From: Prevotella sp.
Lineage (GTDB): Bacteria > Bacteroidota > Bacteroidia > Bacteroidales > Bacteroidaceae
Length of the DNA: 64,000 nt
Direction: 5' to 3'
NCBI GenBank assembly: GCA_017960525.1
Contig: JAGCZA010000007.1
Coordinates: 1 to 64,000 of the forward strand
Shown here: piece after piece, positions 2,398-53,559 of the stretch
How the letters are laid out: every line of letters begins with the position of its first letter
Position numbering within the stretch: position 1 is the stretch's first letter
The notes under the pieces: model-generated
Told to the model about the DNA's origin: nothing
Seen by the model: the letters and a program-made list of their open reading frames with translations, nothing else
Databases searched by the model: none
Program-made: the position numbers and the translations under genes

Positions 2398-4044
2398 GTG
2401 ATAAGTGAATACCAGATAAGAGTGATGCCGCAGGTGGCTGCTGACAGCGATGCCTTGCGGCGCTATGTGGCCCAGGAGAAAGGGTTAGCCCTGAGTGCGC
2501 TGAAGGCTGTGCGTGTGTTGCGCCGCAGCATCGACGCCCGCCAGCGCAACATCTTCGTCAACCTGAAGGTGCGCGTCTACGTGAACGAGGAACCGCAGGA
2601 CGATGAGTACGAGCGTGTGGACTATCCCAATGTGGAAGGACGGCCACAGGTGATTGTCGTGGGAGCCGGGCCGGGCGGACTTTTCGCCGCCCTGAGGCTG
2701 ATAGAACTGGGGCTGAGGCCCATCGTGCTGGAGCGTGGCAAGGATGTGCACGAGCGCAAGCGCGACCTGGCCACCATCGCCCGCACACAGACTGTCGATG
2801 GCGAGAGCAACTATTGTTTTGGCGAGGGCGGAGCCGGCGCCTATAGCGACGGTAAACTCTTCACCCGCAGCAAGAAGCGCGGCGACGTGGAGAAGATTCT
2901 GCGCGTGTTCTGCCAACACGGCGCCTCTACCGCCATTCTGGCCGACGCCCACCCGCACATTGGCACCGACCGCCTGCCTGCCGTCATCGAGGCTATGCGC
3001 AACACCATCATCCGCTGTGGCGGCGAAGTGCACTTCCAGACGAAAATGACAGGCTTTATGATTGACCATTCACCATTGACCATTGACCATTCCGTTGTCG
3101 GCGTGAAAGCGCAGCAAACGGTCAATGGTCAACGGTCAATAGTCAATGAAAAAGAGTTTCTTGGTCCTGTCATCCTGGCTACAGGCCATTCTGCCCGCGA
3201 TGTCTATCGCTATTTGGCGGCGGAAGGCATCGAGATAGAGGCCAAGGGCATTGCCGTGGGTGTGCGTCTGGAACACCCGTCGGCACTCATCGACCAGATA
3301 CAATACCACAGGAAGGAAGGTCGTGGTCAATGGCTCCCAGCAGCCGAATACTCGTTTGTGACACAGGTGGAAGGTCGGGGCGTCTATTCGTTCTGTATGT
3401 GCCCTGGTGGTTTCGTCATTCCTGCCGCCACGGGGCCTGAGCAGATTGTGGTCAACGGTATGAGTCCCGCCAGTCGTGCCTCGCAGTGGAGCAACAGCGG
3501 GATGGTGGTGGAAATCAGACCAGAAGACCTTGAAAACAATTACCTTCCTCAACAGGGAGGCCACACCCCCTCAGCCCTAAAAGTGATGCGTTTCCAGGAA
3601 GAATTGGAACAACTCTGTTGGCAGCAAGGCAATCGGAAACAGACGGCACCGGCACAACGTATGGCCGACTTTGTCAACGGACGGTTGAGCAGCGACTTGC
3701 CGCGCAGCAGTTACGCCCCCGGACTGGTGGCTTCACCCCTGCACTTCTGGCTGCCGAAGCCCATTGCCAACCGACTGCAACAGGGCTTCAGGACCTTTGG
3801 CCGCCAGGCGCACGGTTTCCTTACCAATGAGGCCGTGCTTATCGGTGTGGAAACGCGCACTTCATCGCCCATCCGCATCCTGAGGAATAACGACAACTTA
3901 CAGCACATCCGCCTGAAAGGGCTTTTCCCTTGCGGCGAAGGGGCCGGCTATGCAGGAGGCATCGTTTCGGCTGCTATCGACGGCGAGCGCTGTGCGCAGA
4001 TGTGTGCACTCTACTTAGAAAATCATTGCTGTTCAACGATGTAA
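2398..4044 (+). CDS. NAD(P)/FAD-dependent oxidoreductase (COG2509-like)
   Basis: A 548-residue predicted flavoprotein. The N-terminal ~75 residues are the small domain typical of this family (RRSIDARQ motif), followed by the dinucleotide-binding motif VVGAGPGGLFAALRL near residue 87 and the conserved FGEGGAGAYSDGKLFTR segment. The C terminus has the GEGAGYAGGI FAD-binding motif. The GTG start at 2398 keeps the whole N-terminal domain; it lies in a run of GACAAGT/GATAAGT heptads. The gene is 6 bp behind the ABC exporter and overlaps the convergent LRR gene by 22 bp at its 3' end. Two inverted heptad arrays (3061-3088 and 3120-3147) encode an extra loop of about 30 residues. The physiological substrate is unknown. 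Confidence 0.85.
   Translation: MISEYQIRVMPQVAADSDALRRYVAQEKGLALSALKAVRVLRRSIDARQRNIFVNLKVRVYVNEEPQDDEYERVDYPNVEGRPQVIVVGAGPGGLFAALRLIELGLRPIVLERGKDVHERKRDLATIARTQTVDGESNYCFGEGGAGAYSDGKLFTRSKKRGDVEKILRVFCQHGASTAILADAHPHIGTDRLPAVIEAMRNTIIRCGGEVHFQTKMTGFMIDHSPLTIDHSVVGVKAQQTVNGQRSIVNEKEFLGPVILATGHSARDVYRYLAAEGIEIEAKGIAVGVRLEHPSALIDQIQYHRKEGRGQWLPAAEYSFVTQVEGRGVYSFCMCPGGFVIPAATGPEQIVVNGMSPASRASQWSNSGMVVEIRPEDLENNYLPQQGGHTPSALKVMRFQEELEQLCWQQGNRKQTAPAQRMADFVNGRLSSDLPRSSYAPGLVASPLHFWLPKPIANRLQQGFRTFGRQAHGFLTNEAVLIGVETRTSSPIRILRNNDNLQHIRLKGLFPCGEGAGYAGGIVSAAIDGERCAQMCALYLENHCCSTM
3061..3147 (+). repeat. Pair of inverted 4 x 7-bp arrays inside a flavoprotein gene
   Basis: ATTGACC-type heptads at 3061-3088 (second unit ATTCACC) face GGTCAAT-type heptads at 3120-3147. 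The arrays are reverse complements separated by 31 bp, so the mRNA could form a long hairpin. Both are translated in frame. Confidence 0.9.
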
Positions 4045-9720: not shown

Positions 9721-12177
9721 CTACATTCTGCCTCCCTGCTGGATGAGGAGGCGGACTTCGTGGTTGAAGTCGTCGGCCTGCATCAGTTGCTCGATGTTGA
9801 GGTGCATGCGGTAGCGCCAATAGTGGCGCGGGTTGGCGGGGATGTTGATGCGCTCTGCATTCTGGTCGGGCAGGCGGAGGCGCTCGTCGATGGAGAGCCA
9901 GTCTTGCAGCGAGAGCAGGCAGAGCATGGAGGGCGACACGAGGTGGCGGGCCACGATTTCACGGGCCAGATTGCCACTAAGCGGATGGGGTGCCGGGCCT
10001 TCGCGGTGCAATTCGTTGTTGTAGTAGCGCTGGGTGCGCTCTTCGTCCTCGTCCCACCACTGGCGGAGGGTGGACATGTCGTGGGTGGAGATGGTGGAGA
10101 CGGAGCGGTAGGGGTTGGCCTGGAGACATCCGAACTCCAGTCCCAACGTCTTGGGCATCGACTGGATTTCCAGCGAGAGGATGCGCAGGTCATTCATCAC
10201 CCAGGGCACGCAGTCGGGCACCATGCCCAGGTCTTCGGCGCAGACGAGCATACGTGTGGCCTGCGTGAGACGTGGCAGTTTCTTCATAGCCTCCTGGTAC
10301 CAGAAATTGTTGTTACGACGGTAGAAATAGTCGTTGTAGAGGGCTGTGAAGGCTTGCTGCTCCCTCTCGTCGAGTTGTTTGAAGGCGTCGAGTTTGAGGG
10401 CGTTGATGCGCGGGTGCCAGGCGTCGTGTCGCTTGTGGTCTTCCAGATACAGTTCCTCGCGGAAGGGCAGGCCCCAGTTGGCAACCTCCTCTTTGGTGAG
10501 CGGCAGCGACGGCTGGAACTGTCCGTAGAGTCCGCTTTTGTGTGGCACGGGAATCTCCCAGATGCGGAAGAAGCCGAGCACGTGGTCTATGCGGTAGGCG
10601 TCGAAGTACTCCTGCATCTTGCGGAAGCGCCGCACCCACCACGAGCAGCCGTCGGCGAGCATTTCGTCCCAGTTGTAGGTGGGGAATCCCCAGTTCTGCC
10701 CGTCCTCGGCAAAGGCGTCGGGTGGTGCTCCAGCCTGTCCGTTGAGGTTGAAGTAGCGCGGCTCTATCCAGGCCTCGACGCCGTCGCGTGAGATGCCGAT
10801 GGGTATGTCGCCCTTGAGGATGATGCCCTTCTTGCGGGCGTGTTCGTGGGCTTGGTGCATCTGCTGGTCGAGGTGGTATTGCACGTAATACCAGAACTCC
10901 ACCGTCTCCTTTTTGGGCAGCGGCAGTTCCTTGGGCCACTGGTTGAAGTCGGCTGTGCCGTAGATGTCGCGGTAGCAGCAGAAGCGGGCGTATGGTTCGA
11001 GCCACTGCCTGTTGCCGTCGAAGAACTGGCGGTAACTGGCCCTGCGCTTGACGGTGTTCCACTCCTGGGCGTATGTCAGGTGGAGGTAAGACATCTTGGC
11101 CTCCATCATGCGCTCGTAGTCGATTTGCGGCATCGCGTTCAACTCCTGGCGAAGCATTTCCATTCGATTTTTCTCGATTTCATCGGAGATTGGCGGCAAC
11201 TGTCGGAGGTCTATGTATTGCGGGTGCAGGGCATAGATGCTGATGCTGTTGTAGGGGTAGGAGTCCTGCCAGGTATGGGTGATGGTGGTGTCGTTGATGG
11301 GCAGCACCTGCAGGATGCTCTGCCCCGTCAGGGCGCACCAGTCGATGATGCTCTTCAGGTCGCCGAAGTCGCCCACGCCAAAACTTCCCTCGGTACGCAG
11401 GGCAAAGACGGGGATGACGGTGCCCGCGCCCTTCCACGGTGCTATCGAGAACCAGGGCTGCGGCAATTCTGCCACCACGGTGAAGTCGCTGCTGTGTATG
11501 GAGATATGGCTGCAAGAGAGGCAGTAGTGTAGGTCGAACCAGCGGTTGGGACCGTTCTCCCAGAGGATATCGTACTTGTCGTTCTGCTTGACAATGATGA
11601 ACTTATATTCGAAACTGGTGGGCAGACGGTCGGCATCGAGTTGCAACTGCCATTCGCATCCGTCGGTTTCCTGCAAGGGCAGGGCCTTTTCCGGGTTCCA
11701 TTCGCCCAGATAGACGGGGCCTCCCACCAGGGCCAGGCTTTCGCCCTTGCGCAGTTGCGGTGCGTGCACCTTCATCAGCACCGTGCGGGAAGTGTGAAGT
11801 GGGAGGTGGGAAGTACGAGATGGAAGGGGAGAGTGGTGTGGTGCCACGCAGTCGGTGAATGCCGAGGTGTAGAGATAACTGTCCTCAGGATTGTCGTTCC
11901 ATCTGTCGAAGACCACGCAGTCGTTGTCGCCCAATTGCAGTTTGTGTGGCAGCAGGAGCCACTCTTTGCGCAACACGTCGCTGCCTCTTACCACACAATA
12001 GTGATAGGTGAGGAGTTGGGGAGTTGGGGAAGTGTGGATGTCTAACTCCAGCATCCAGTTCACGCCGTCGCTTGTTGTCATCGTGTACGCCGTCTCACTG
12101 CCGTCGATGCCCACGACATTCAGCGTCAGTTGTTCTCCGAAGACAGTGCGATACTCCAGGTTGAATAATAGTTTCAT
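9721..12177 (-). CDS. malQ: 4-alpha-glucanotransferase (amylomaltase) with N-terminal starch-binding domains
   Basis: 818 residues. MalQ transfers alpha-1,4-glucan segments between maltodextrins in the cytoplasm. No signal peptide is seen. The first ~240 residues hold two CBM20-like starch-binding domains (the second has [18 protein letters not shown] and FEYKFIIVK), followed by a GH77 catalytic domain from ~250 ([28 protein letters not shown]) with [16 protein letters not shown] and [17 protein letters not shown], which include catalytic acids. This long form is usual in Bacteroidota. Heptad arrays at 11787-11814 and an 8-bp one near 12008-12032 encode linker segments rich in Ser/Pro/His/Thr inside the CBM20 region. 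Confidence 0.92.
11787..11814 (-). repeat. 4 x 7-bp array in malQ
   Basis: Plus-strand units GGGAAGT, GTGAAGT, GGGAGGT, GGGAAGT; translated on the minus strand as part of a Ser/Pro/His/Leu-rich linker between the two CBM20-like domains. Confidence 0.85.
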
Positions 12178-12257: not shown

Positions 12258-12315
12258 CCTGTACGCGCAAACGTTTGCACGTTGACATTGACTATTGACC
12301 ATTGGCCATTTGTAT

Positions 12316-13367: not shown

Positions 13368-15104
13368 TTAGAAGTGGCACCCTATGGCTACGGTGGCGGT
13401 TGTATGGTCGCGCCCAGTGGCACATTCGGATGAAGGGGTGTTGCACTTACGATGGTGCAGTGCAGCCCTGACGTAGGTTCTGAGTTGTGTTGAAGGGAAG
13501 ATGAAAGTGTATTTCACGCTGCCGCCCAGACGGTATTGTGCCGCCGTGAGCCACTGGTATTCCTGCCAGAGGTAGTAGTCCATTGAGGCGGGAGCCTCCA
13601 TCTTGTCGCTGGGAGTTTGGAAGGTGAGGTCTTCACAGGGTTCTCTACTGCCTTTGCCATAGGCTCCGTCAAGGCCGATTGCCCATAAGCCCTTGGCCCC
13701 TTTCGTAACGGCAAACTGACAACTCACGCCGGCCGAGAGTTCGCCGTTGTCCAGGTGCTGACGGCGGTAGAATGGGTAGAAGTAGGCCGTCTGGCGGCGG
13801 TGCATCCAGGCGTAGCCCAGTTGCAGCATCCAGGCGTGGACGGTCTGCTGTGCGGTGGGGTCGCTCACCTGCCCGAGGTCGGCCCCCAGCGTAAGCGAAC
13901 CGTCGACCCACACTTTGTTGGCGGCCTTGGTCGGGGTGTAATAGTTGTAGTAGTTCGCGCCAGACTCGTTTTGCAGTTCCCTGTAGTTGGCCACGTTGTT
14001 GGTCAGGTTCTCGGCGTTGAGCGCCAGGTCGAGGTGGAGTCTCGACAGGGGGCAGACCAGTTCCAGTCGGGCGTCGTAGTGCCACACGTCGCTCTTATGG
14101 TCTGTGTAGGTGATGGTGTAGGGCGACTTGCGGCCATAGTAGCCCTTTCGGTGGGCGTATGCGGCGGCGTTGAAAAACGTGAGGCTGTTGCTTCCCAAGG
14201 CTTGGATCAGCGAGAACTGGAGCGTAGCCCCGTTGTAGTCGCTCACGAGCGGCATTTCGCGGCTGCTGTCGGTGAATCCGCTGGAGGTGAACTGCTCCAA
14301 CGGGCCTGTGAAGTTGGCGTAGTCGATGAGCGACTTATAGACCTTGTCGGTCTTGCCGTAGGTCTTGAAGAGCAGACTCTCGGTAGTGCGGTGGTAGATG
14401 TAGTTGGCCCCCAGCGCTATAGCGGTCTTTCTGGCGACGGTAAGGGGAACATAAAACCCTGCCGTGAAGTGCAAGTCCATCAGTTTGTTCTGGTGGCGCA
14501 AGTCCTTGTACTTGGCATAGTTGGCGGCGGTGTAGTCGAGGCGCGCGCCTAAGGAGATGCCCCGATGGATGTCGATGCCCATCCCGCCCGACAGCCTGTA
14601 GATGTCGAGGTGCTTGGTGCCGGTGTTGGTGAGCGAGTCTTCCACGATGTCGAAAGGAAGATGGCGGCTGGTGTGCAGTTGTGGTGTGGCCACCAGCGTG
14701 GGGTTCCAGCCGTCGGGCGTCAGCGGCTGGATGAAGGCCGAGCCGGCCATATCGTGGCCTGAAAAGTTGTCGTAGCCCATAGCGCCGAAGACGACAGCCT
14801 TTTGGCCGAGCCTGAAGAACGAGGAGACGGTGGCACTGGCGGTGAGGGCGTCGGGCGAGTCGTAGTAGTTGGTAAAGTCCCCCTTCCCCTTGGTCAGCGA
14901 CAGTTCTGCCGTCGCCGTGGTGTTCCCCACAAAGCGCGTCAGTGCGGCGGCGTTCTGCGAACAGAGCCACGGGTCGTAGGTCTGGGCCACCACGTGGAGA
15001 AATGAGAAATGAGAAATGAGAAATGAGAGACAGGCTGCGCGTGAAACACGCAACCATCCTATGTTCCTCTTTATGTCCCCCTTAAAGGTAATCATATTTC
15101 TCAT
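13368..15104 (-). CDS. DUF6850-like outer-membrane beta-barrel protein
   Basis: 578 residues. It matches the pattern of DUF6850 outer-membrane proteins that accompany DUF4876 and TonB receptors in Bacteroidota: many amphipathic strands with aromatic ends and a C-terminal strand ending in F (TTATVAIGCHF). The signal peptide core (LSFLISHFSFLHVVAQ) is encoded by four GAGAAAT heptads (plus strand 14997-15024) and the start codon itself lies in a second array. Function is unknown; a channel or substrate-handling barrel for the neighbouring TonB receptor is inferred. ATG 15095 is an alternative start. Confidence 0.72.
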   Translation of the reverse strand: MRNMITFKGDIKRNIGWLRVSRAACLSFLISHFSFLHVVAQTYDPWLCSQNAAALTRFVGNTTATAELSLTKGKGDFTNYYDSPDALTASATVSSFFRLGQKAVVFGAMGYDNFSGHDMAGSAFIQPLTPDGWNPTLVATPQLHTSRHLPFDIVEDSLTNTGTKHLDIYRLSGGMGIDIHRGISLGARLDYTAANYAKYKDLRHQNKLMDLHFTAGFYVPLTVARKTAIALGANYIYHRTTESLLFKTYGKTDKVYKSLIDYANFTGPLEQFTSSGFTDSSREMPLVSDYNGATLQFSLIQALGSNSLTFFNAAAYAHRKGYYGRKSPYTITYTDHKSDVWHYDARLELVCPLSRLHLDLALNAENLTNNVANYRELQNESGANYYNYYTPTKAANKVWVDGSLTLGADLGQVSDPTAQQTVHAWMLQLGYAWMHRRQTAYFYPFYRRQHLDNGELSAGVSCQFAVTKGAKGLWAIGLDGAYGKGSREPCEDLTFQTPSDKMEAPASMDYYLWQEYQWLTAAQYRLGGSVKYTFIFPSTQLRTYVRAALHHRKCNTPSSECATGRDHTTATVAIGCHF

Positions 15105-15126
15105 TTCTCATTTTTCATTTATCATT
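14997..15126 (-). repeat. Inverted heptad arrays around the start of the DUF6850 gene
   Basis: Plus strand GAGAAAT x4 at 14997-15024 faces TTTCTCA/TTTTTCA/TTTATCA units at about 15097-15126, roughly 70 bp apart. The second array contains the start codon (15102-15104) and the first encodes the signal peptide core, so the transcript can pair across the start region. Confidence 0.85.
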
Positions 15127-16751: not shown

Positions 16752-19700
16752 ATCTTTAGTCTCAATGATAGTCCGTAGTAGAAACTGGGGATGTAGTTGC
16801 TGCCGAAAAGCGACGTTTCAAGGTCGGTCTGCGACGAGTGTACCCGCCGCATATTGTTGAAGAAGTTGTTGGCATAGAACGACACCGATATATGGTCGCC
16901 TATCTCCTTTGTCACGCTCAGGTTGGCCGAATAGTAGGCCGACAGCCGGTTGGGGTTCAGGACGTAGGGGAAGTTGGAGCGCACCACAAGTTGCGCCAAC
17001 TGGTTGTAGAGTTGCTTGTCGTTCTCCTTGGCGTCAAGGAAAGCCTCGGCGAAGGGAATCAGCCGCGACGGCTCCTCCCAGGTGGAGTAGTATTCAGGCC
17101 AGACCACCACATAGTGGTCGGTGGTGTTGCCGTCGTAGGGCTCGCCCGTGTAGCCCTCATTGCCTTCGAGCATATAGCTGCGGGGGGAACCGTCGTCGTG
17201 CTGGCACAGTGCGCGCTGGTAGTTGTAGAGCGAAGCCTCCAGGCGCAGGGCCATCACTAGACGGATGCGCGGGATGTGGGTGGTAAGCGTGGTGTTCAGG
17301 TTGAGTTGGCGGGCCAGTGCACCGTTGCTCACCGAGGCGTTGGCGCTGCTGCCGGCGGTGGTCACGCTGGTGCCACGATAGTAGCCGATGTACTGGTAGG
17401 GCTGGCCGCTGCTGGTCACATTGCTGATGCCCAAAGGCACGTCGGCAAAGAGCACGTCGTCTGTGCTTTTATAATAATAGTAGTTGCCGTCGAGACGGAG
17501 CGAGGTGCGCAACGCCTTTATCTGGGCGAAGTCGATGACCCACTCCAGGCCGTAGCGGTTCAGCGGCGTGGCGTTGGTGTAGTGCTGGTTCACCACGTAG
17601 GTGTGCTTGTCGGTGTAAGGCAATTCGGTTGAGAGTTGGGGATTTTGCGTTGAGTGTACGGTGACGGTTCCCGTCTGGCGGTCGATGGTGAACGAGCGGT
17701 CGCTGGCAGGGATGCCGCTCTGCTGTATGGCGGCCTGGCCGGTGTAGCGGTAGGAGAAGGGCGTGTAGTTCTTGGTGGCCATATAGGTGCCGTAGGTCTT
17801 GTGGTGATAGCCGGAGAGGCTCACGTGGGTGCCCTTGATGTCAAACTCAATGCCGATGTCGGTCTGGTTGGTGTGCTGCCAGGTGAGCGAGGGGTTGTAC
17901 TGTGCCCGAGAGGGGTAGGTGTGGTAGGCGTAGTACGACACGTTGTCGGCTGTCGATGTGGAGGCGAAGGCCAGCAAGTCGCTATACGACGGCGACGGAT
18001 AGAGCACCTGGAAGGAGGGCAGTTTGACGCTCTTGCCCCATCCCGCGTGCAGTTCCAGGGCGGAGACCCATCGCCGCCGCTGGCTCCGCCAGAGCACAAG
18101 GCGTGTGTTCACACGTGGCGAAAGGCTGCTCACCGTGCCGTAGTCGCTGCCGCCAATCATCGTGATGTCGTCGCGCAGGCCGACAGTCAGTTCCAGAGAG
18201 GAGTTGCTGTACTTTTCACTTTTCACTTTTAACTTGTCACTTGAAAAAGGTATGACAGCCTTCTCCTCCACATAGAGGCCCACGTTGTGCATTGTCGGCA
18301 GTTCGTCGTAGCGGTATTCGCGCCAGGTGGGAGCCACGCGCATATCGTCGTAGTAGATGCCGCGCCCATTGTTGCGGCTGGCATTGTACTGTGCGCCCAC
18401 CGCAATACGGTTCATTACGGTGCCGAATCGGCGGTTGTTCTCAGCCTTCAGTTTCGCCGCCCACGAGAGCGGCTTCGTATCGTTAAACGACAGCACATCC
18501 CAGTAGCCCGTCGGCCCCAGAATGATAGGGCTGTACTTTTCACTTTTCACTTTTAACTTTTCACTTGATAGCCAGTACCCTTCCTCGGTAGCGTGCAGAT
18601 AAGGCTGCGTAGAGGCGCTGCTGGTTCGGGTGAGGGCTTCCTGCTTGCGGTCTTGGTAGGAAAACGAGGCACTGAGTTGCAGATTGGTGAGCCACGGCTT
18701 GTTGGGCATCCACCGCAAGTCGATGCTGCCCCTGAAGACATTGTCCCGCACTTTGTTGTAGTTGTTTAGTTCTTCGTCAGGGTCTGCCTCGCTGTTGTAT
18801 CCCCCCACATTGCCCGTCAGGCCCACGTCGAGCGTCAAGGGCATTGTCTCGGTGAAGAAGGTGTTCAGGTAGTGCAGCGAAAGTATGTTTCGCTGGTAAG
18901 TCGTATAGGGCGAAGCAGGGTCGGACAACGAGCGGGCGTGCTCCATCGACAAATTGAAAACACCTAAACGCTGGCGGGAGCGGCCTAAATTGAAGCCTTT
19001 GCTCACGGCAATCTGGCGCGTGTGCTGGTTCAGGCTGCCCTCCACGATAAAGGGCGACTTGCCCCTCCGCGTCTGAACCTTCACGATGCCGTTGCTCAAG
19101 TCGCCGTACTCCACCGACGGAATGCCAGTCACCACCTCGATGCTCTCCACATTGCTCGTGCTGACGGTGCGCGTAGAGGCGCCTAAGGTCTCGTCTTTCA
19201 TCGCATTGTTGTCAAGACGCAGACCGTCCACTTCGACGGCTGTGCCGAAAGAGGCATTGCCTTTCTCCTGCGAAGCGCTGCGCAAAGCCATGCGCGTGTC
19301 GTTCATCAGCGAGGGGTTCACCGTCTTGCCGCCAGGGAGGAGCGTGCCGATAGTGCTGATGTTCACCAGTTGCTGCTGGTCGAGCGTAGTGCGGTCAATC
19401 GAGTAACTTGTGGTGGCCTCGTCCTGCTTGCGCCGCGCCGTCACCGTCACCTCGTCCAACTTCAGGTTGCCAGGCTTCAGCCGAAGGTTCATATCTTTCA
19501 CGTCGCGCTCAAGGGTCATCGGAAAACTGCGCTTCTGATAGCCCAGACATTGCACGGTCAGCGTGTTCTTGCCCTTCGGGACACTCTTGATGGTGAACCG
19601 TCCGCCCTCGCCAGTGACTGCCCACAGGCCGCTCTCGCTCAACAGGATAGAGGCAAACTCAATGCCCTCACCCGTGTCAGCATCAGTCACAACACCCCCT

Positions 19701-19950: not shown

Positions 19951-19980
19951 CCCGCTACGCGGGCAAGCTGCTCACGCTCG

Positions 19981-38775: not shown

Positions 38776-38813
38776 CTTTCTTAATGTTTATTGTTTCACG
38801 TTTATTGTTTATT
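38711..38813 (-). repeat. Inverted 4 x 7-bp arrays around the susD-like start codon
   Basis: CCAATAA-type heptads at 38711-38738 (third unit ACAATAA) encode the signal peptide core. GTTTATT-type heptads at 38786-38813 (second unit GTTTCAC) fill the gap between the SusC stop and the SusD start. In mRNA the two arrays are complementary over about 27 nt and enclose the start codon. Confidence 0.93.
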
Positions 38814-38816
38814 GCA

Positions 38817-41800
38817 TCAGAACGACACGTTGATACCGAAGGTCATCTTGCGGAGGTTGGGATAGCGTCCGTAGGTGCCGCCGTAACTGGCCCACGACTT
38901 TCCGGGGTACGGGTTGTAGAGGTAGAGGGCGTTCTGTATGGTGAAGTTCAGTCGGACGTTGCTCACGCCGATGGGCTTGAGCCAGTTCTTGGGCAGACTG
39001 TAAGCCAGCGAGACGTTGCGCAGGGTAACGTTGGCGGCATTGACAAGCCAGAAACTCGATGCCTGCTCGTTGATGCTGCTGTACTTCATATTGGGGTAGG
39101 CAGCCTCGGTATTGCGGGGCACGGTGACATTGCCGCTGGCGTCGTAGATGTCCTCGTAAACGAACATATCGCTCCAGAAGGAGGGCACATTCTGATACTC
39201 CAGGTCGTCAGCCGACTTGCGGAAGTCGGTCTGCACAATGTCGTAGGCACCCCAAGCAGCGGAAAGTTGGGCCGTCAATGAAAGGTCGCGCCACGAACCA
39301 CCGAAGTTCACGGTGAAGCCGTAGGGGTTGCTTGAGAACTTCGACAGTTGCACATAGTCGTTCTGGTTGATCTTGCCGTCAGGACCACCGTAGTTGCCCG
39401 TGCCGTCGTTGTCGCCATGCATGTCGGCATAGATAAGTGTGCCGGGGTGGACGTCGTCGATGGTCTTGCCGAAGTAGGTGGTGATGTTATTCTCAGTAAA
39501 GTATTCCTGAATCTCCTGGTAACTGCGGAACATACCGAGGCACTTCAGACCCCAGACGCCACGATCCATACGCTCGCCCTTGACCTGGCTGTCATATTCG
39601 GGCGTGGCGGGGAACGGGCCTTCCAGAATCTTGTTGTCGTTCCAGCCAGTGGAGAACTTGACCCAGTAGGTCCAGTCCTTGCCAATCTTGTCGCGCCAGC
39701 CCAGATTCAGTTCCCAGCCCCAGTTGTCCACGGCACCGTAGTTCTCGGGCGTGGCCTGCGTGCCCACGGTGGTGGGGAAGAATGACGTGCCAGTATAGGT
39801 CATAAACATATCGCGGCCACGGTCGTAGTAGTAGTTGAAGTCCACGGAAAGACGTCCGTCGAGGAAGCGCATATCGAGACCCACATTGGTCTTATAGTTC
39901 TTGTCCCAGTGTACGTTGGGATTCACGCCACGCACAGGCATAACCGAACCGGCGGAGACGGGGGTGTTGGTCGTCGACTGGCCGAAGACGGCACCCTTGT
40001 CGAGGTCGCGGTTATACTGCTGGCGCCAGAGGAAGGCCACGATGTTGTCGCGTCCGAGGTAACCCCAACTGGCACGAATCTTCAGGAAATTAAACCAGGG
40101 GAGGGACTTCTTGAACCACTCCTCTTCGCTGACCACCCAGCCGGCACTAACGCTGGGGAAGTAGCCCCAACGGTTTTCGGGGGCGAACTTCGAACCGTTA
40201 CCGTCGGCACGGAAGAGGAACTCCAGCAGATACTTGTCGGCGTAAGCGTAGTTGATACGAGCCACGTGCGAGAGCATACCGCCCACGCCACGGTTGAAAC
40301 TGGTGGCCTGGTCGCCAGTGGCCGACTTCGATTGTCCGTCGGTATAACTGACTGGGTCGGTGATTTCGCCCGTCAGGTCTTCCCACTCGTTCTCAGAGCG
40401 CTCCAGCGTATAGAGGGCACTCACGTCGTGTTGTCCAATCTTGCGGGCGTACTGCAGGGTGAAGTTCAACTGGTAGGAATCGTTACGCTGCATAGAACGC
40501 TGCAGCAGACTGCCATTGTTCAGCGTCAGCGTGGAGAGCGTGCTGGCATTGTACCAGTCGGCAGTATTCTGTCCGGCCCAAGTGTAGAGGTGCGGATAGT
40601 CGGCGTTGCGCTCCTGCAGTTGATAGACATCCATGAAAGTCTTCATGGTGTTGTTTTTAGAATTGTTGATGGTCTTCGAGTACGACACGCGGGCGGTGAG
40701 TCCCTTCAAAGGCTTGATGAAGCCAAGGTCGAAGGATAGGGCACCATTGATGGTCATATTGTTGGTCATATTGCGCACATAGTCGTCGCAACTTTGCACG
40801 GCCTCGAAGTTGTAGAGGCGGGTGTCGCTCGTGGGTATGACGTTCTGCATACCGGAGTAGACCAGCGGGTAGCCGTCAACCGAACTGGGCACGAAGGGCA
40901 GATGGGCCATCAGGTACTTGTAGTCGCCGTCGGTGCCTCCACCCTTGGCAATGATGGCATTATTCTTTTTGCCGTAGTCGCCGCTCACTTCGAGGGTGGC
41001 CTTTACATACTTGCCGATGTTGGTGTTCACGCCTGCACGGTAGTTCCAGCGGTCGTAGTCGAGTTTGCCGATATTACCGTCCTGGTTGAAATAGGAAACG
41101 TTGGCAAAATAGGTGGCGTTGTCGGAGCCGCCGCTCACGTTAATGCTGTGGCGGTGGGTCAGGGCGGCCCGCCATTCGTCGTCGAGCAGGTCGTAGTTCA
41201 GGTTCTTCATCTGCTCCAGTTCGTTCTGCTGGAAGAGCACGCGGGCATTGTCCACATAGTCCTTTGTGGCTGTGCCTGCGGCGGTGACTGCGTTCCACAC
41301 ACGGCCATAGTCGTAGGCCGACAGCATCTTTGGGGTGAAGATGGCATCGGTCCATCCGAGTTGTCCGTTATAAGAGATGCGTGCAGCCCCTGCCTTGCCC
41401 TTCTTCGTCTTGACGAGGATGACACCGTAGGCCGAGCGTGCGCCGTAGACGGCGGCGGCAGCGTCCTTCAGCACTGTGATGCTCTCCACCTCACTGATGT
41501 CGAGGTTGTTGAACGCCTCCTCGGTGGAGATGAAGTCGTCGATGACGTAGAGCGGCGAAGCATTGGGGTCGCCGCCATTGGTGGCTCCGGGGGTGTTCTG
41601 TGTGTTGGCCCCGGCGTTGCGGATTTGCAGCGAGGGGCTTTGTCCGGGACGGTAGGCTCCGGCGCCACGGCTGACGCTTACGCCATTGAACTGTCCGGCG
41701 AGGGCGTCGCCCAGGCTTCCTACAGAGAGGTCTTTCAGTTCGTCGGCGCTGATGGCCTCGACGGCACCAGTCACGTTCTTCATTTTCTGTGTGCCATAGC

Positions 41801-42128
41801 CCACAACCACGACCTCTTCGAGCGAAGCACGGTCTTCTTGCAGTTTGACTTTGCCGCCAGTGGTCTCTACGGCCACGTAGCCGATATAACTGATAGTGAC
41901 CTTTGCCTTTTCGGGAACTTCCAGTTTGTAGTTGCCGTCAAAGTCGGTCACGGTGCCAATCTTTGTGCCTTTCACTTGAACGGTGGCACCGATGACGGGT
42001 TCGCCCGTCTCGTCGTAGACCGTACCGGTGACGACCTTGTTTTGCGCTGCGCTAAATGTAAAATGACAAATGATAAATGATAAACTTATCAGTAGTCGCT
42101 TTATGATAGTATTCTTCATAATCTTCAA
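38817..42128 (-). CDS. SusC/RagA-family TonB-linked outer-membrane transporter
   Basis: 1103 residues. Signal core LLISLSFIICHFTFSAAQ, then carboxypeptidase-regulatory domain (VTGTVYDETGEPVIGATVQV), the SusC-type box (VVVGYGTQKMKNVTGAVEAI), TonB plug, and a 22-strand barrel ending in RKMTFGINVSF. It imports oligosaccharides with the SusD lid encoded next. Located 9 bp after the DUF4957/DUF5123 gene, so part of the same operon. Four 7-bp repeats (42054-42081) encode the signal peptide core. Confidence 0.94.
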   Translation of the reverse strand: MKIMKNTIIKRLLISLSFIICHFTFSAAQNKVVTGTVYDETGEPVIGATVQVKGTKIGTVTDFDGNYKLEVPEKAKVTISYIGYVAVETTGGKVKLQEDRASLEEVVVVGYGTQKMKNVTGAVEAISADELKDLSVGSLGDALAGQFNGVSVSRGAGAYRPGQSPSLQIRNAGANTQNTPGATNGGDPNASPLYVIDDFISTEEAFNNLDISEVESITVLKDAAAAVYGARSAYGVILVKTKKGKAGAARISYNGQLGWTDAIFTPKMLSAYDYGRVWNAVTAAGTATKDYVDNARVLFQQNELEQMKNLNYDLLDDEWRAALTHRHSINVSGGSDNATYFANVSYFNQDGNIGKLDYDRWNYRAGVNTNIGKYVKATLEVSGDYGKKNNAIIAKGGGTDGDYKYLMAHLPFVPSSVDGYPLVYSGMQNVIPTSDTRLYNFEAVQSCDDYVRNMTNNMTINGALSFDLGFIKPLKGLTARVSYSKTINNSKNNTMKTFMDVYQLQERNADYPHLYTWAGQNTADWYNASTLSTLTLNNGSLLQRSMQRNDSYQLNFTLQYARKIGQHDVSALYTLERSENEWEDLTGEITDPVSYTDGQSKSATGDQATSFNRGVGGMLSHVARINYAYADKYLLEFLFRADGNGSKFAPENRWGYFPSVSAGWVVSEEEWFKKSLPWFNFLKIRASWGYLGRDNIVAFLWRQQYNRDLDKGAVFGQSTTNTPVSAGSVMPVRGVNPNVHWDKNYKTNVGLDMRFLDGRLSVDFNYYYDRGRDMFMTYTGTSFFPTTVGTQATPENYGAVDNWGWELNLGWRDKIGKDWTYWVKFSTGWNDNKILEGPFPATPEYDSQVKGERMDRGVWGLKCLGMFRSYQEIQEYFTENNITTYFGKTIDDVHPGTLIYADMHGDNDGTGNYGGPDGKINQNDYVQLSKFSSNPYGFTVNFGGSWRDLSLTAQLSAAWGAYDIVQTDFRKSADDLEYQNVPSFWSDMFVYEDIYDASGNVTVPRNTEAAYPNMKYSSINEQASSFWLVNAANVTLRNVSLAYSLPKNWLKPIGVSNVRLNFTIQNALYLYNPYPGKSWASYGGTYGRYPNLRKMTFGINVSF
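42054..42081 (-). repeat. 4 x 7-bp array encoding the SusC signal peptide core
   Basis: Plus strand AAATGTA, AAATGAC, AAATGAT, AAATGAT. Another related run (TTCAATTATCAA repeats, about 42124-42149) lies at the start codon. Confidence 0.92.
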
Positions 42129-42137
42129 TTATCAATT

Positions 42138-43571
42138 TCAATTATCAAAATTCTCATACCATCTGGGGTCTCCCTGTCCGGCTTCCTGCTGTTCGGCAGC
42201 TGGGGTGAACTGCGCGTTGGCGGGGTCTAAGCCCGGGTCGTTGGTGAGCCACAGGCCGGGGTTCTTGATGCCCGTCTGCGAGGCACTTGCGTCGGCACCG
42301 TCGCGCCAGCAGGTGTTGTTGTTCACGTCCCAGATGGGGTTGTCGCTCGACTGGCCCTTGTTCAGGCCGGTGAGGAAGTTGGCCTTGCCGCAGTCCTGGA
42401 CGATGGTGTTCTTCAGCGTGTAGTGGTAGGTGGTCTGTCCGTTGTGGTAGTCGCAGAAGTTCTTGCCGTAGGCCAGGTTGGCCAGTGTGCAGTTGATGAT
42501 GTTGGTGTAGCGCTGCTCCTCGTCGCTGACGTCCTTGGGCCGTCCGCCGTGCTGGATGAAGAAACAGTCGCTGTGCTCACGCGAGAAGACGGTGGAGTTC
42601 TTGATGGTGAAGTCTGAGATGAAGCCCGACTTCATATAGACGAAGGCAGCGCTGTTGGCTGTCGGGATGGTCTTGTCCACCTCTACCACAGTGTTGTTGA
42701 TGCTCACCACGCGCACGTCGTACTTGGCCGAGTTGCTGGCTATGATGCTGGAGCCCAGTTTGCCGATGACGCATCCCTGCACCACCACGGGGTCCATAAT
42801 GAAGTAGCAGCCCTTCTCGCCGATGAGGTTTTTGATGCTCTCGTCTGGCTCGTCGCTAAACATAACAATTGGCTTGTTGGTGGCCTCGGCATCGATGTTC
42901 AGGTATTTCAGGGTGAAGCCTGCATAGGTGTAGAAGTAGGAGCCGGCTCCCATAACGACGTTGGCGTATGTGGCTTTCGACGATGAGCGGAGCGTCACCT
43001 GATGGCCACCGAAGTCAATCTTGCCTGACAAGGTGTACGAACCACCCGGCGTGAGGTCGTAGCACAGATGGCTGGTGCTGTCTTCGGGGATGGGATTTGC
43101 CTCGAACCATTCTTTCAGGTCACTACCGTCAGGAATTTCGGCGTAGGTAGGAAGGAAGGTGTTGAACTTGTATTCTGTACTCTCCTTCGCTTCGCTATTG
43201 TTGTATTTCGGGTTGCCTAATGTGCGAATGTTGAGGCTGTAGTTGGTGTCCTCTTCGCGGTCGGTGCGTAGTGAGCAGCCGTCAATGGTGTCTGTCTTCA
43301 GGAGCACGGGATTGTCAGGGTCGTTCACATTGTAGAGTGCCACAGCATAACCGCCTGCTCCGTAGACTACGGGCCAGGCAATGGTCATCGAACTGCCGTC
43401 GGCGCTCGAAGTGATGCTGATTTTGTCGGCTTCGGGCGATGTCAGCGTGGCGTTCTTCACCTGTGGACTCCACGACTCGTTACCGTCGTAATGGTCGGCA
43501 CACGAAACCGTCAGCCCCAAAGCAATGATGGGGCAGAGTGACGCTTTCTTCAGGAATTGATGTATGTCCAT
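42138..43571 (-). CDS. DUF4957/DUF5123-type surface lipoprotein of a PUL
   Basis: 477 residues. Lipoprotein signal with Cys25 (GLTVSC followed by ADHYDG). Residues ~30-130 form a fibronectin-III-like domain; ~150-440 look like a right-handed beta-helix with repeated 'V.I.N.TV...' rungs, matching DUF4957 and DUF5123. These domains occur in pectin-type polysaccharide utilisation loci of Bacteroidota, where the protein is thought to bind glycan at the cell surface. The C terminus (PRWYENFDN) is typical. Lacks recognisable lyase catalytic residues, though I cannot exclude activity. Confidence 0.75.
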   Translation of the reverse strand: MDIHQFLKKASLCPIIALGLTVSCADHYDGNESWSPQVKNATLTSPEADKISITSSADGSSMTIAWPVVYGAGGYAVALYNVNDPDNPVLLKTDTIDGCSLRTDREEDTNYSLNIRTLGNPKYNNSEAKESTEYKFNTFLPTYAEIPDGSDLKEWFEANPIPEDSTSHLCYDLTPGGSYTLSGKIDFGGHQVTLRSSSKATYANVVMGAGSYFYTYAGFTLKYLNIDAEATNKPIVMFSDEPDESIKNLIGEKGCYFIMDPVVVQGCVIGKLGSSIIASNSAKYDVRVVSINNTVVEVDKTIPTANSAAFVYMKSGFISDFTIKNSTVFSREHSDCFFIQHGGRPKDVSDEEQRYTNIINCTLANLAYGKNFCDYHNGQTTYHYTLKNTIVQDCGKANFLTGLNKGQSSDNPIWDVNNNTCWRDGADASASQTGIKNPGLWLTNDPGLDPANAQFTPAAEQQEAGQGDPRWYENFDN

Positions 43572-46176: not shown

Positions 46177-46260
46177 TAGGTTCGTTCTTTCTCATAGTTT
46201 GGTTCGTCCAAACTCATACTTTGGTTCGTCCTTTCTCATAGTTTGGTTCGTCCAAACTCA
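46177..46260. repeat. AGTTTGGTTCGTCC intergenic repeat array, second locus
   Basis: Four units of the family seen at 19854-19950, with alternating spacers TTTCTCAT and AAACTCA. It lies directly upstream of the secreted-protein gene start at 46145. Confidence 0.85.
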
Positions 46261-49728: not shown

Positions 49729-49825
49729 ATGCTTTTTTATTAATTTAGGGTCATTTTTTACAGAAATCGAACAAAATGGAAATTTTTCCATTCCGAAAGA
49801 TAGCGATAGTATGAAAAATACATCG

Positions 49826-49833
49826 TACTTTTG
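49826..49833 (+). promoter_or_regulatory. -7 box of the efflux operon
   Basis: TACTTTTG, 19 nt before ATG 49853. It lies downstream of the in-frame ATG at 49811, which therefore cannot be the start. No consensus -33 box, fitting an activator-dependent promoter under the AraC-type regulator. Confidence 0.55.
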
Positions 49834-49852
49834 CAGCAGAATTTTAAAGCAA

Positions 49853-51130
49853 ATGATTATGAGAAGATTGATTATTGTTCTTACGATGATGCCGATTATG
49901 GCACAGGCGCAGACGCTGGAGGAGTGCCAGCAGGCTGCAGAGCGGAACTATCCGCTGATTCAGCAGTATGACCTGATCAACAAGACAACAGAGCTAACGG
50001 TCAGTAATATCCAGAAGGGATGGCTGCCACAGGTGTCAGCATCAGCACAGGCCACTTATCAGAGCGACGTTGTGTCTTTCCCTGACGAGATGCAGGCATT
50101 GTATCAGCAGATGGGTATCAACATGAAAGGGCTGACGAAGGACCAGTACCGTGTGGGTATCGACGTGCAGCAGACGGTGTTCGACGGTGGTGCCATCCGC
50201 AGCCAGAAGGAGATAGCACGGGCGCAAGGACAGGTGCAGCAGGCTCAGAACGAGGTGAATATATATCAGGTTCGCCGTCGCGTGAACGAGATGTACTTCG
50301 CCCTGTTGCTGATTGACGAACAGATGAAGCTGAATGCTGACTTGCAGGAGTTGCTGGCCGGCAACGAGCGGAAACTGGAGTCGATGAAGAAGAACGGCAC
50401 GGCAGCCGAGAGCGACTGGCACTCCGTGAAGGCTGAACGGCTGAACGTGGTGCAGCAGATGACAAGTTTGCAGGCGCAGAGGCAGGTACTGGCTAGGATG
50501 TTCTCTACTTTCTGCGGGATAGAAGTAAAAGAGGCAACGAAGCCAAATTGTCAATTGTCAATGGTCAATGGTCAATCGAACAATCGTCCCGAGCTGAAGG
50601 CCATTGATGCCCAGTTGCGGCTGGCTGATGCTCAGGAGAAAGCCATCAATTCCGCGCTGATGCCTCGGTTGGGCGTGTTCGCACAAGGCTTCTACGGCTA
50701 TCCCGGCTATAATATGTTCGAGGACATGATGAGCCGCAAATGTTCGCTTAACGGCATGATTGGCGCACGGCTGACGTGGAACATCGGAGCACTGTACACC
50801 CGTAAAAATGACAAGGCGAAAATACAGCTGCAACGTGACATGGCCGAGAACAGCCGAGACGTATTCCTGTTCAACAACAATCTGGAGCAGATACAGCAGA
50901 ATGAAAACATAACCCGCTACCAGCGGCTAATGTCCGATGACGAGGAGATTATCCGTCTGCGCTCGTCAGTGCGCAAGGCGGCAGAGTCGAAACTCGCCCA
51001 TGGCATCATTGACGTGAACGACCTGGTGAAGGAAATCAACAGCGAGAATCAGGCCCGCGTGCAGCAGACGGTACACGAAATAGAGATGCTGAAGGAAATA
51101 TACGACCTGAAGTACACAACAAACAATTAA
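49853..51130 (+). CDS. TolC-family outer-membrane efflux protein
   Basis: About 425 residues. Signal peptide (MIMRRLIIVLTMMPIMAQAQ; ATG 49859 is an alternative start). Two OEP repeats with long helices: LEECQQAAERNYPLIQQYDL near the N terminus and a second set from ~240 (RPELKAIDAQLRLADAQEKA). It forms the outer-membrane channel of a tripartite pump with the HlyD and ABC proteins encoded next. An array of four 7-bp units (50546-50573) encodes NCQLSMVNGQSN between the two repeats. Confidence 0.9.
   Translation: MIMRRLIIVLTMMPIMAQAQTLEECQQAAERNYPLIQQYDLINKTTELTVSNIQKGWLPQVSASAQATYQSDVVSFPDEMQALYQQMGINMKGLTKDQYRVGIDVQQTVFDGGAIRSQKEIARAQGQVQQAQNEVNIYQVRRRVNEMYFALLLIDEQMKLNADLQELLAGNERKLESMKKNGTAAESDWHSVKAERLNVVQQMTSLQAQRQVLARMFSTFCGIEVKEATKPNCQLSMVNGQSNNRPELKAIDAQLRLADAQEKAINSALMPRLGVFAQGFYGYPGYNMFEDMMSRKCSLNGMIGARLTWNIGALYTRKNDKAKIQLQRDMAENSRDVFLFNNNLEQIQQNENITRYQRLMSDDEEIIRLRSSVRKAAESKLAHGIIDVNDLVKEINSENQARVQQTVHEIEMLKEIYDLKYTTNN
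50546..50573 (+). repeat. 4 x 7-bp array in the tolC-like gene
   Basis: Units AATTGTC, AATTGTC, AATGGTC, AATGGTC, translated between the two OEP halves. Confidence 0.9.
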
Positions 51131-52101: not shown

Positions 52102-53559
52102 ATGACAGCGATTGAAGTAAACAATATCAGCAAGAGCTATGGTAAGGTGCGGGCACTTGATAGCGTTTCGTTCTCGGTCGAGAAGGGCGAGGTGTTCGGA
52201 CTCATCGGGCCTGACGGAGCTGGCAAGACATCGATGTTCCGCATCTTGTGTACGCTGTTGTTGCCTAATGAAGGGACGGCAAAGGTGGACGGCTTCGATA
52301 CCGTCAGCCAGATGAAGGACATTCGCCGTCGCGTGGGCTACATGCCGGGGCGGTTCTCGCTCTACCAGGACCTGACGGTACGGGAGAATCTGGAGTTCTT
52401 TGCCACGCTGTTCGGCACGACGGTGGATGAGGGCTACGACAGCATCAAGGCCATCTACTCGCAGATAGAGCGGTTTGCTGACCGCAAGGCTGGGGCACTG
52501 TCGGGCGGCATGAAACAGAAGTTGGCGCTGTCGTGTGCATTGGTACATAGCCCGAGCGTACTGTTTCTTGACGAGCCGACGACGGGCGTTGACCCCGTAA
52601 GCCGCAAGGAGTTCTGGGAGATGCTCGCCACGCTGAAGGAGCGCGACATCACCATCGTGGCCTCTACGCCCTATCTCGACGAGGTGCGCTGCTGCGAACG
52701 TGTTGCGTTCCTGAGCGAGGGCAGGGTGCAGGGCATCGACACGCCAGAGGTTATCCTCGACAGATTTAAGGACGTATTCAATCCACCGGGTATAAAACAC
52801 AACAAGGCTTCTGAATTTAAGTCAGAAAACGTCATTGAGGTAGAGCACCTGGTCAAGGCTTTCGGTTCGTTCCATGCCGTCGATGACATCACTTTCAGCG
52901 TGAAGCGGGGCGAGATATTCGGGTTCCTTGGTGCCAACGGTGCGGGCAAGACAACGGCCATGCACATGTTGACGGGACTGAACCAGCCCACCAGCGGCAC
53001 AGGACGAGTGGCTGGCTACGACATCCGCACAGAGCATGAGCAAATCAAGAAGCACATCGGGTATATGTCGCAGAAGTTCTCACTCTATGAGGACTTGACT
53101 GTGGCCGAGAATATTCGGCTCTTCGCTGGCATCTACGGGGTGAAAAGTGAAGAGATAAGAGTGAAGAGTGAAGAATTGCTGCGCCGTCTGAAGTTTGAGA
53201 GTCATGCCAACGACCTTGTAGGTTCGCTGCCCTTGGGATGGAAGCAGAAACTGGCCTTCTCGGTCTCTATCTTCCATGAACCTGCCATCGTGTTCCTCGA
53301 CGAGCCGACGGGAGGCGTTGACCCTGCCACGCGCCGCCAGTTCTGGGAACTGATCTACGATGCAGCCCGTCGTGGCATCACCGTATTCGTGACCACCCAC
53401 TACATGGACGAGGCCGAATACTGCGACCGCATCTCGATTATGGTGGACGGGAAAATCAGCGCAATGGGTACGCCCGACGAACTCAAGGCACAGTTCCACC
53501 AACCCGACATGGACCATGTGTTTACTTATCTGGCAAGACAAGCAAAAAGAGGAGATTAG
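52102..53559 (+). CDS. ABC transporter ATP-binding protein with two fused ATPase domains
   Basis: 485 residues. First domain: Walker A GPDGAGKTS near 37, signature ALSGGMKQK near 133, Walker B VLFLDEPTTGVDP. Second domain from ~245: Walker A GANGAGKTT near 275, degenerate signature SLPLGWKQK, Walker B IVFLDEPTGGVDP. The fusion resembles YbhF, the ATPase of the YbhFSR drug exporter. Works with the two ABC-2 permeases encoded next. Five 7-bp repeats (53140-53174) add the peptide VKSEEIRVKSEEL just before the degenerate signature of the second domain. Confidence 0.9.
   Translation: MTAIEVNNISKSYGKVRALDSVSFSVEKGEVFGLIGPDGAGKTSMFRILCTLLLPNEGTAKVDGFDTVSQMKDIRRRVGYMPGRFSLYQDLTVRENLEFFATLFGTTVDEGYDSIKAIYSQIERFADRKAGALSGGMKQKLALSCALVHSPSVLFLDEPTTGVDPVSRKEFWEMLATLKERDITIVASTPYLDEVRCCERVAFLSEGRVQGIDTPEVILDRFKDVFNPPGIKHNKASEFKSENVIEVEHLVKAFGSFHAVDDITFSVKRGEIFGFLGANGAGKTTAMHMLTGLNQPTSGTGRVAGYDIRTEHEQIKKHIGYMSQKFSLYEDLTVAENIRLFAGIYGVKSEEIRVKSEELLRRLKFESHANDLVGSLPLGWKQKLAFSVSIFHEPAIVFLDEPTGGVDPATRRQFWELIYDAARRGITVFVTTHYMDEAEYCDRISIMVDGKISAMGTPDELKAQFHQPDMDHVFTYLARQAKRGD
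53140..53174 (+). repeat. 5 x 7-bp array in the ABC ATPase gene
   Basis: Units GTGAAAA, GTGAAGA, GATAAGA, GTGAAGA, GTGAAGA. The encoded peptide VKSEEIRVKSEEL is related to KLKVKSEKYS in the TonB receptor. Confidence 0.9.

Follow-up and report, generated by a model that had tools for sequence, protein, structure and literature searches.

Introduction

The STRR heptanucleotide repeats of filamentous cyanobacteria are dispersed arrays in which a unit of seven bases (a heptad) is repeated in tandem. The heptad arrays considered here lie in a 64,000-nucleotide stretch of DNA from Prevotella sp. (the window; positions 1 to 64,000 of contig JAGCZA010000007.1, assembly GCA_017960525.1), elsewhere in the same genome and, in many bacterial phyla, on both sides of small genes for four-helix-bundle proteins of the S23/IVP type (TIGR02436). 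It is likely, in our judgement, that these arrays represent the inverted ends of very small mobile elements carrying an S23 gene, or what is left of such ends. We know of no link between the STRR repeats and S23 genes; a likeness is that ten cyanobacterial S23 genes analysed here are flanked by heptad arrays.

Several described systems come close to these arrays. Passages of PMC4692102 describe GGGAATC heptads in Xanthomonas, where arrays most often have four units and each genome contains 70-75 convergent pairs; they also mention three Calothrix heptanucleotides. In the Nostoc studied there, according to the same passages, pairs are few and none is on its plasmids. The GGGAATC repeats and the GGGGA(C/T)T repeats of Nostoc are interpreted there as G-quadruplexes, generally apart from mobile elements. 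The arrays described here resemble those of Xanthomonas in being heptads, in their four-unit mode and in their convergent pairs, but differ in that one unit per genome is described for Xanthomonas and Nostoc. A first-pass annotation of the window, made from its letters alone, knew of no described element of this kind, which in view of the Xanthomonas repeats was too strong a statement. The TAACTGA repeats of Beggiatoaceae, Cyanobacteria and Bacteroidetes, as portrayed in parts of PMC4679880, are short, mostly intergenic heptad arrays of a single unit, arranged as direct repeats with one inverted case, and they occur partly in the same phyla as the arrays described here; the terms "helix bundle" and "S23" do not occur in PMC4679880.

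The S23 open reading frame (ORF) is familiar from intervening sequences (IVSs) of 23S ribosomal RNA (rRNA): in sections of PMC4990558 it lies in an IVS of 428 nucleotides with a 28-bp stem formed by terminal inverted repeats, long suspected of being mobile. The elements proposed here have in common with that IVS the protein family, a similar length and the terminal inverted repeats, whereas they lie outside rRNA (no rRNA at the Rfam gathering score in any of 80 loci, L210-L289) and occur in several copies per genome. Furthermore, they end in tandem arrays of short units, a comparison made with the rRNA IVSs as described. BrickBuilt, a miniature inverted-repeat transposable element (MITE) of Porphyromonas gingivalis, has 23-nucleotide repeats inside and small inverted ends (excerpts of PMC4596501). 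Short gene-less forms with inverted ends, and empty sites in relatives (on cyanobacterial plasmids), are features in common with MITEs, and BrickBuilt also holds tandem repeats; unlike in BrickBuilt, the arrays themselves are the ends here and the fuller element has an S23 gene. A related, distant four-helix-bundle family is Avd of diversity-generating retroelements: three of three phage matches are annotated as accessory variability determinant, and the Avd model NF033474 gave 29.1 bits (cut-off 80) in one of two proteins and no match in the other. In contrast to a diversity-generating retroelement, the element described here is too small for a reverse transcriptase.

Heptad repeats and S23 rRNA IVSs were thus already known separately, and the mechanism given below for the element is a proposal. 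Among the papers listed from the open-access literature, as judged by titles and the starts of abstracts, none was found that joins heptads or inverted arrays with S23 or four-helix-bundle genes.

Inverted Arrays on Both Sides of S23 Genes

The prevailing polarity of the arrays is 5'-(NNNNTGA)n ... (TCANNNN)n-3', which is identical when read from either strand. Among neighbouring arrays no more than 120 nucleotides apart, labelled by purine and pyrimidine strand, eight pairs were convergent, one was divergent and one had the same orientation; the latter two (3061/3120 in the window and 7914/7986 in L036) are actually complementary (0.90 and 0.86). Of the 10 close neighbours, 6 had a complementarity above 0.865, a value below which 90% of 600 random array pairs fell. 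Three convergent pairs 404-445 bp apart (L039, L045 and L050) each enclose one S23/IVP four-helix-bundle gene, that of L039 with an internal stop. Between neighbours 701-5000 bp apart there was no excess of convergent pairs (4 convergent, 5 divergent, 14 same).

The Prevotella genome has 11 matches to TIGR02436, corresponding to about 10 genes, six of which lie between matched heptad arrays in inverted orientation, each gene having a unit of its own (L071, GAGGTGA; L073, CATTGAC; L074, GTTGAGA; L077, AAATGAG; L078, AGTGAAG; L079, ACTATTT). Bracketing was scored as the best ungapped inverted repeat between the upstream and the downstream flank of a gene, with a threshold of at least 12 and with flanks of different genes (mismatched pairs) as the control; as the mismatched pairs contain related loci, this control is conservative. 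In the Prevotella genome and its relatives, 29 of 33 loci reached the threshold, compared with 26 of 1056 mismatched pairs (the count excludes L080/L081, the pieces of a single broken gene, and L101-L104, which match the family weakly). Across many phyla the figures were 59 of 77 loci (3 of 80 having been dropped as too near contig ends) and 198 of 5852 mismatched pairs, with 26 of 33 loci outside Bacteroidota; on viral contigs, 17 of 22 and 16 of 462 (22 of 26 loci were used, L307 being left out and three identical copies dropped); and in a phylum-wide set, the weakest of the sets, 14 of 30 and 24 of 870. Ten cyanobacterial plasmid loci, picked from 33 matched records, all scored at least 15, with arms such as GGGAGTA, CAGGGAA and AGTCAGA; 10 of their 90 mismatched pairs did so too, because some of these loci have a common unit.

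For 196 ORFs of 300-900 nucleotides from the Prevotella genome (crude gene calls, by which some of its four-helix-bundle genes were missed), nine scored at least 12 and two at least 16; L045 contains both of the latter, one being a four-helix-bundle gene and the other a GxxExxY gene. A detectable period-7 array was present in 96 of 226 flanks of four-helix-bundle genes, and 66 of these 96 had 4-5 units, the same copy-number preference as in gene-less arrays. Neither the inverted pairing nor the S23 link had appeared in the first-pass annotation, and the same holds for the unit families and the 17 of 82 arrays within the first 45 codons of genes that are described below.

In a KSB1 genome, two Acido-Lenti-1 RNAs are located close to an S23 gene (L242:2477-3095). 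Of the cyanobacterial S23 genes, L291 separates nrdB from the gene for the nrd alpha subunit, and L299 separates cas6 from cas4.

Filled and Empty Sites on Cyanobacterial Plasmids

One site exists in both filled and empty form. It is filled in Trichormus variabilis plasmid C (L295) and in Scytonema NIES-4073 (L330), and empty in plasmids of Nostoc linckia, Fremyella and Aulosira (L326-L328), with 97.6-98.0% identity in the matched parts. The empty allele reads AAAAAGTAATTAAC and the filled one AAAAA-GTAAT-AAATCAG...TTCTTT-GTAAT-TAAC. Thus, the insertion (423 bp in L295, 409 bp in L330) runs from array to array, has the arrays inside it, and is bordered by a 5-bp target duplication, GTAAT. It contains the four-helix-bundle gene alone, without a transposase, and its left array differs by two units between L295 and L330. 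At the same site, a hairpin that lacks the gene but has arms of this type is present in a Brasilonema plasmid (L331), and a solo array in a Nostoc plasmid (L329).

Five more plasmid sites (queries L296, L291, L294, L297 and L293) likewise exist in filled and empty form, with looser boundaries; at the L296 site there is a gene-less form with arrays (L334). Taken alone, the empty L295 allele is compatible with precise loss. At the L293 site, 2 of 20 among the records listed are filled, and the other 18, whose two or three matching pieces together span about 72-74% of the query, list no S23 gene (L342 and L343 were confirmed by sequence); since this site is mostly unfilled, gain is favoured over loss. 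In the 100 of 149 loci with definable ends, no general target duplication was found.

Abundance and Copy Number of Period-7 Arrays

Arrays in the window were detected with Tandem Repeats Finder, which recovered all those named in the first-pass annotation near the positions given there, including the 8-bp forms at 1665 and 32975, and added three period-7 arrays of at least 3.6 units (at 12282, 15096 and 42125). By a separate match/mismatch score (at least 12), the window has 10 period-7 arrays compared with a mean of 0.0 in five Markov-2 shuffles, so that the arrays are more frequent than in shuffled sequence, a comparison that the annotation had named as a possible refutation. At the same score, 400 kb of stretches of the Prevotella genome, picked around matches to the pattern TCAYTTN, gave 45 arrays where 0.5 were expected; in 255 kb picked without regard to repeats, the density was lower, at 24 per Mb. 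Periods 4-6 and 8-13 yielded 0-6 arrays each in the 400 kb, where periods 14 and 21 are multiples of 7. The unit TAACTGA/TCAGTTA was seen, by eye, in 0 of 82 arrays of the sampled Prevotella DNA.

The numbers of whole units in these 82 arrays were two in 4, three in 7, four in 34, five in 26, and six or more in 11; that is, 60 of the 82 have 4-5 units, and the median length is 32 nucleotides. A geometric fit would give 22, 16, 12, 9 and so on, and the observed copy numbers are not geometric. As the cut-off score of 10 under-samples two-unit and imperfect three-unit arrays, the low end of the distribution is less certain than its peak. The constant number of four units put forward in the first-pass annotation therefore survives as a preference for 4-5 units but not as a strict constancy; its argument that random slippage would not give a preferred copy number together with changing units agrees with this peak, and the broad distribution that would have spoken against it was not seen.

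Gene-Less Arrays and the Arms of Elements in the Same Genome

The 76 gene-less arrays of the Prevotella genome (6 arrays lying in three of its own four-helix-bundle elements were left out) had a mean best score of 18.3 when aligned to the arms of the four-helix-bundle elements of the same genome (own arms) and of 11.4 when aligned to equal numbers of foreign arms, and own arms surpassed foreign arms for 66 of the 76. Some of the matches extend into the inner flanks (7914 of L036 with L074, score 33; 15096 of the window with L077, score 29). These matches imply that many of the seemingly changing units are families set by the elements present. Thus, the units do vary, as the first-pass annotation said, although not freely from locus to locus: they fall largely into families matching the four-helix-bundle elements of the same genome.

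In sampled stretches of related Prevotella, a count that the first-pass annotation had proposed, the density was 50-162 period-7 arrays per Mb in five genomes of the genus with 4-11 TIGR02436 matches, weak ones counted (G001, G006, G007, G008 and G009); no period-7 array was present in 360 kb from five genomes with 0-1 matches (G003, G010, G012, G016 and G017). A single genome with 2 matches accounted for both of the arrays detected in 720 kb from nine low-match genomes of other families, of which two have 0.64 G+C. Low G+C as the sole cause of absent arrays was rejected, in that two genomes of 0.64 G+C without such genes are likewise free of period-7 arrays.

The arrays of the window, aligned to own arms with foreign arms as the control, are listed in Table 1. 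By their sequence, 3061, 3120, 12282 and 50546 would belong to the family of L073, 14997, 15096 and 42053 to that of L077, and 27429 to that of L074; 18211, 18535 and 53140 would belong less clearly to that of L078, and 31196 and 31295 weakly to that of L077. Several arrays are translated within conserved genes, as the first-pass annotation had seen (27429, 3061/3120, 11787, 50546 and 18211/18535). Arms of 8-bp units of the type GGAGTTCA/GGAGTTAA flank four-helix-bundle genes of relatives (L086 and L089). The array at 32975 is probably outside the system.

Table 1. Arrays of the window, with alignment scores to own and foreign arms (for pairs, in the order of the positions)
Array	Position	Strand	Own arm and score	Foreign mean	Gene and remarks
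Inverted pair ATTGACC x4.4, GGTCAAT x4.1	3061-3091, 3120-3148		L073, 25 and 22	9.8 and 9.6	Inside FAD-dependent protein gene 2398-4044 +
Inverted pair GAGAAAT, ATTTCTC	14997-15028, 15096-15126		L077, 22 and 29		Around start of DUF6850 gene 13368-15104 -; match of 15096 includes inner flank ATATGATTA
Inverted pair AAGTGAT, TCACTTA	31196-31215, 31295-31326		L077, 17 and 14 (weak)	10.4 and 11.8	Surrounds start of DUF4296 gene 31212-32225 +; inner flanks ATGGTTAG/CTAACCAT
Inverted pair CCAATAA, TTATTGT	38711-38740, 38781-38814		10 and 11 (near background)		Around start of SusD gene 36529-38775 -
TAAATGA, TCAATTA	42053-42084, 42125-42148		L077, 19 and 10		SusC-like gene 38817-42128 - (named from sequence), 42125 at its start region; units loosely complementary, weak predicted fold
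TTGACCA, solo	12282-12310	-	L073, 22	8.2	Intergenic
ACTTTTC	18211-18242	+	L078, 15	10.4	TonB-receptor gene
ACTTTTC, second array	18535-18566	+	L078, 17 (yet one random window segment reached 23 in the control)	9.4	Same gene and orientation as 18211, left flank in common
CTCTCAA, solo	27429-27458	+	L074, 22	15.4	Class I tRNA synthetase gene, probably ileS (26734-30171 +)
AATTGTC, solo	50546-50576	+	L073, 22	11.8	Outer-membrane efflux protein (OEP) gene 49811-51130 +
GTGAAGA, five units	53140-53174	-	L078, 18 (weak)	16.2	ABC-transporter-like gene 52102-53559 + (named from sequence)
GGGAAGT	11787-11814	-	8 (background)		4-alpha-glucanotransferase gene
CAGGAGTG x4.4, 8-bp	1665-1699	-	10	12.8	ABC-transporter gene 517-2391 +
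ACGTAATA, weak 8-bp	32975-33001		8 (background)		73% matches

Position Relative to Genes and Putative Signal Peptides

Under a crude gene call, by which 88.6% of the sequence is coding, 44 of the 82 arrays fall within coding sequence. Seventeen are in the first 45 codons, all of them TCA-sense; 23 are gene-internal (14 TCA-sense, 9 TGA-sense). Within 60 nucleotides upstream of starts there are 13 TGA-sense and 3 TCA-sense arrays, and within 60 nucleotides after gene ends 16 and 1, respectively. The 17 of 17 may be largely explained by stops in the TGA-sense units. In some cases the start codon falls within a predicted hairpin loop.

Read by eye, 14 of the 17 gene-start arrays form the hydrophobic core of a signal peptide and are followed by a cleavage site or a lipobox. 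Examples are ISLSFIICHFTFSAAQ, TVIGYCLLVIGCSDD and ALFTLHFSLFTSRATAQ, the last being encoded by an arm of the L078 element, and the proteins concerned are unrelated, SusC and SusD types among them. In the window, the array within the DUF6850 gene and that at 42053, in the SusC-like gene, read as such cores by eye; the SusD gene has the lipobox VIGC, and the DUF4296 gene has a lipobox with TFSC after the array. Arrays that land near start codons could be retained because their TCA strand is usually free of stops in all frames and encodes a hydrophobic stretch, i.e., a ready-made signal-peptide core.

Other Repeat Families

GC-rich hairpin-like sequence (GCGCTNCGCTA and similar) stands directly outside arrays of L078, L076, L041, L049 and L034 and at 42045-42053 of the window; possibly, it represents the actual outer terminus of one element family. 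Near gene starts (19854-19951 and 46179-46253 of the window) there is a separate tandem family with units of 22 bp (AGTTTGGTTCGTCC...); period 22 accounts for 22 arrays in the 400 kb of the Prevotella genome, the family being apart from the heptads, and palindromes of its sequence are present in L033, L037, L043 and L046. Another inverted-repeat family (CCCCCTAAGTTAGGGGG ... GTCTGAAC) is found at L036:1061-1168, L038:12781-12908 and L041:10797-10932, and a further one, with inverted CCCCACCC(C/T)TGCCCCTCCCC arms, at L053:6241-6436, L064:14942-15079 and L066:5508-5620. In genome G163 (L344-L347), which is without TIGR02436 matches, 23 period-9 arrays were found in 80 kb; these are possibly protein repeats.

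Weighing the Explanations

A number of observations weigh against an origin of the arrays from S23 elements. In the search of the Prevotella genome with TIGR02436, no four-helix-bundle gene was found on the contig of the window, and 6 of the 19 window arrays (1665, 11787, 32975, 38711, 38781 and 42125) match own arms at about background and were assigned to no family. Heptad arms are absent from the own genes L072, L075, L076 and the broken L080/L081 (L072, with units of about 11 bp, and the A-rich L075 have other inverted arms, and L076 has a weak one), and 16 of the 30 phylum-wide genes score below 12. The 3061/3120 pair is not one simple insertion, given the conserved host sequence between its arms and the small net gain in length: in a set of 15 relatives, the strand between the arms is conserved, six residues are missing from 12 at the left array, and on the right the difference amounts to 0-5 residues or more. 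The pair may have arisen through two solo events or by copying between strands. The filled and empty sites belong to cyanobacterial plasmids and not to the species under study; the five further plasmid sites gave no clean duplication (TTCTA at L297 is plausible by eye), and 5-mers shared outside the arms showed no general excess (22 of 100 loci, 20.7% when mismatched). The base composition of the foreign arms differs, which may raise the contrast between own and foreign arms. Finally, the match counts for the genus contain weak partial matches to longer proteins; the genus genomes with zero arrays are lower in G+C (0.37-0.44), so that the contrast is confounded; G004, with 6 matches, has no period-7 array and has 9-bp arrays instead; and the sample from four gene-rich genomes of the phylum, with 1 array in 80 kb, is too small.

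The arrays could instead be independent short tandem repeats made by slippage, 7 bp being preferred by the polymerase (as Mrazek et al. 2007 proposed, according to passages of PMC4679880, where heptads are also described as the commonest long simple repeats in many genomes). The two-unit difference between the left arrays of L295 and L330 shows that units are gained or lost, in keeping with slippage; this explanation is nevertheless highly improbable, given copy numbers that peak at 4-5 without a fall-off, 6 of 10 close neighbours that are inverted with matched units, arrays that lie inside an insertion, and inverted arms that, in many phyla, flank the genes of a single family. Inverted pairs might also arise by template switching between strands (quasipalindrome correction), with an array being copied across a short segment. 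The common units of paired arms and the conserved host sequence flanked by 3061/3120 would suit this process, which is unlikely as the general origin in that it leaves unexplained both the pairs 400-450 bp apart around one gene family and the array-to-array insertion with its duplicated target.

A regulatory explanation holds that leader arrays are selected binding sites, or hairpins, which control translation, as proposed by MacGregor for TAACTGA repeats that precede start codons (according to passages of PMC4679880). The biases in sense upstream of starts, after gene ends and in the first 45 codons, together with the start codons in predicted hairpin loops, point in this direction; we regard it as rather doubtful, because 23 arrays are gene-internal, the units vary between genes, the same type of array bounds an insertion, and stops in TGA-sense units may go far to account for the 17 of 17 (yet TGA-sense is the reading of 9 internal arrays). 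Another explanation is that an ordinary transposase recognises the arrays and the four-helix-bundle gene is a passenger. This has an appreciable chance of being correct, somewhat short of even: the insertion of 409-423 bp fits a four-helix-bundle gene alone, a GxxExxY gene is also found in comparable inverted arrays, and there is a 5-bp target duplication, such as is typical of several transposase families. Against it, no longer element with such arms was recognised (neighbours 701-5000 bp apart; the genes between them were not looked at). Elements bounded by their own arrays are, in our view, the likely source of the heptads, and we infer that most arrays of the window arose from such elements and that copies of these spread by transposition.

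Proposed Element and Its Significance

A full element would be about 410-500 bp long and would consist of an array, an S23/IVP-type four-helix-bundle gene, and then the same array inverted. Each end array would typically have 4-5 short units, mostly of 7 bp and sometimes of 8, 9 or 11. The unit would be inherited with the element, such that several element families in one genome would result in several units, and gene-less hairpins and solo arrays would be shorter derivatives or remnants.

As for the mechanism, we put forward tentatively that the protein, a putative pentamer, attaches to the 4-5 cores that make up an arm, either as DNA or as an RNA hairpin, and recruits an enzyme from elsewhere. 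Each of the solved homologues, 2gsc and 2rld, comprises five chains, and an arm has about five cores, which suggests binding core by core. The enzyme provided in trans might be a reverse transcriptase, a transposase or a nuclease: the kinship of the family to Avd makes reverse transcriptase one candidate, and a GxxExxY gene within inverted arrays of the Prevotella genome makes a nuclease of that type another. GxxExxY proteins are presumably nuclease-like. The gene in question (TIGR04256; L045:10336-10830) lies inside inverted 9-bp arrays (ACGGATTAA) with a score of 25, and a plasmid GxxExxY gene (L385) lies inside inverted repeats of the type ACACAGAG with a score of 16; other loci scored 12 or 11 (L052), 11 (L384, a single unit) and 8 (L108). 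These five usable loci were too few to claim GxxExxY as a second cargo, and no GxxExxY relatives were found in two viral scans.

Taken further, the elements may perhaps constitute a class of mobile element of their own, present in many bacterial phyla, in which the sole gene encodes a pentameric nucleic-acid-binding protein for about five spaced cores. Genome-wide heptads, rRNA IVSs and many gene-less hairpins would then be one system, with the GxxExxY nuclease as a possible partner and with ends that are a recurrent source of signal peptides; we consider this wider proposal possible rather than probable. From the proposed origin of the arrays in S23 elements, one would expect the density of arrays to track the number of S23 genes, and unit families to track protein families. 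Three puzzles would thereby be joined, i.e., the dominance of heptads in some bacteria, the role of the "four helix bundle protein", and the past mobility of rRNA IVSs, and a route would be suggested by which mobile sequence may become signal peptides.

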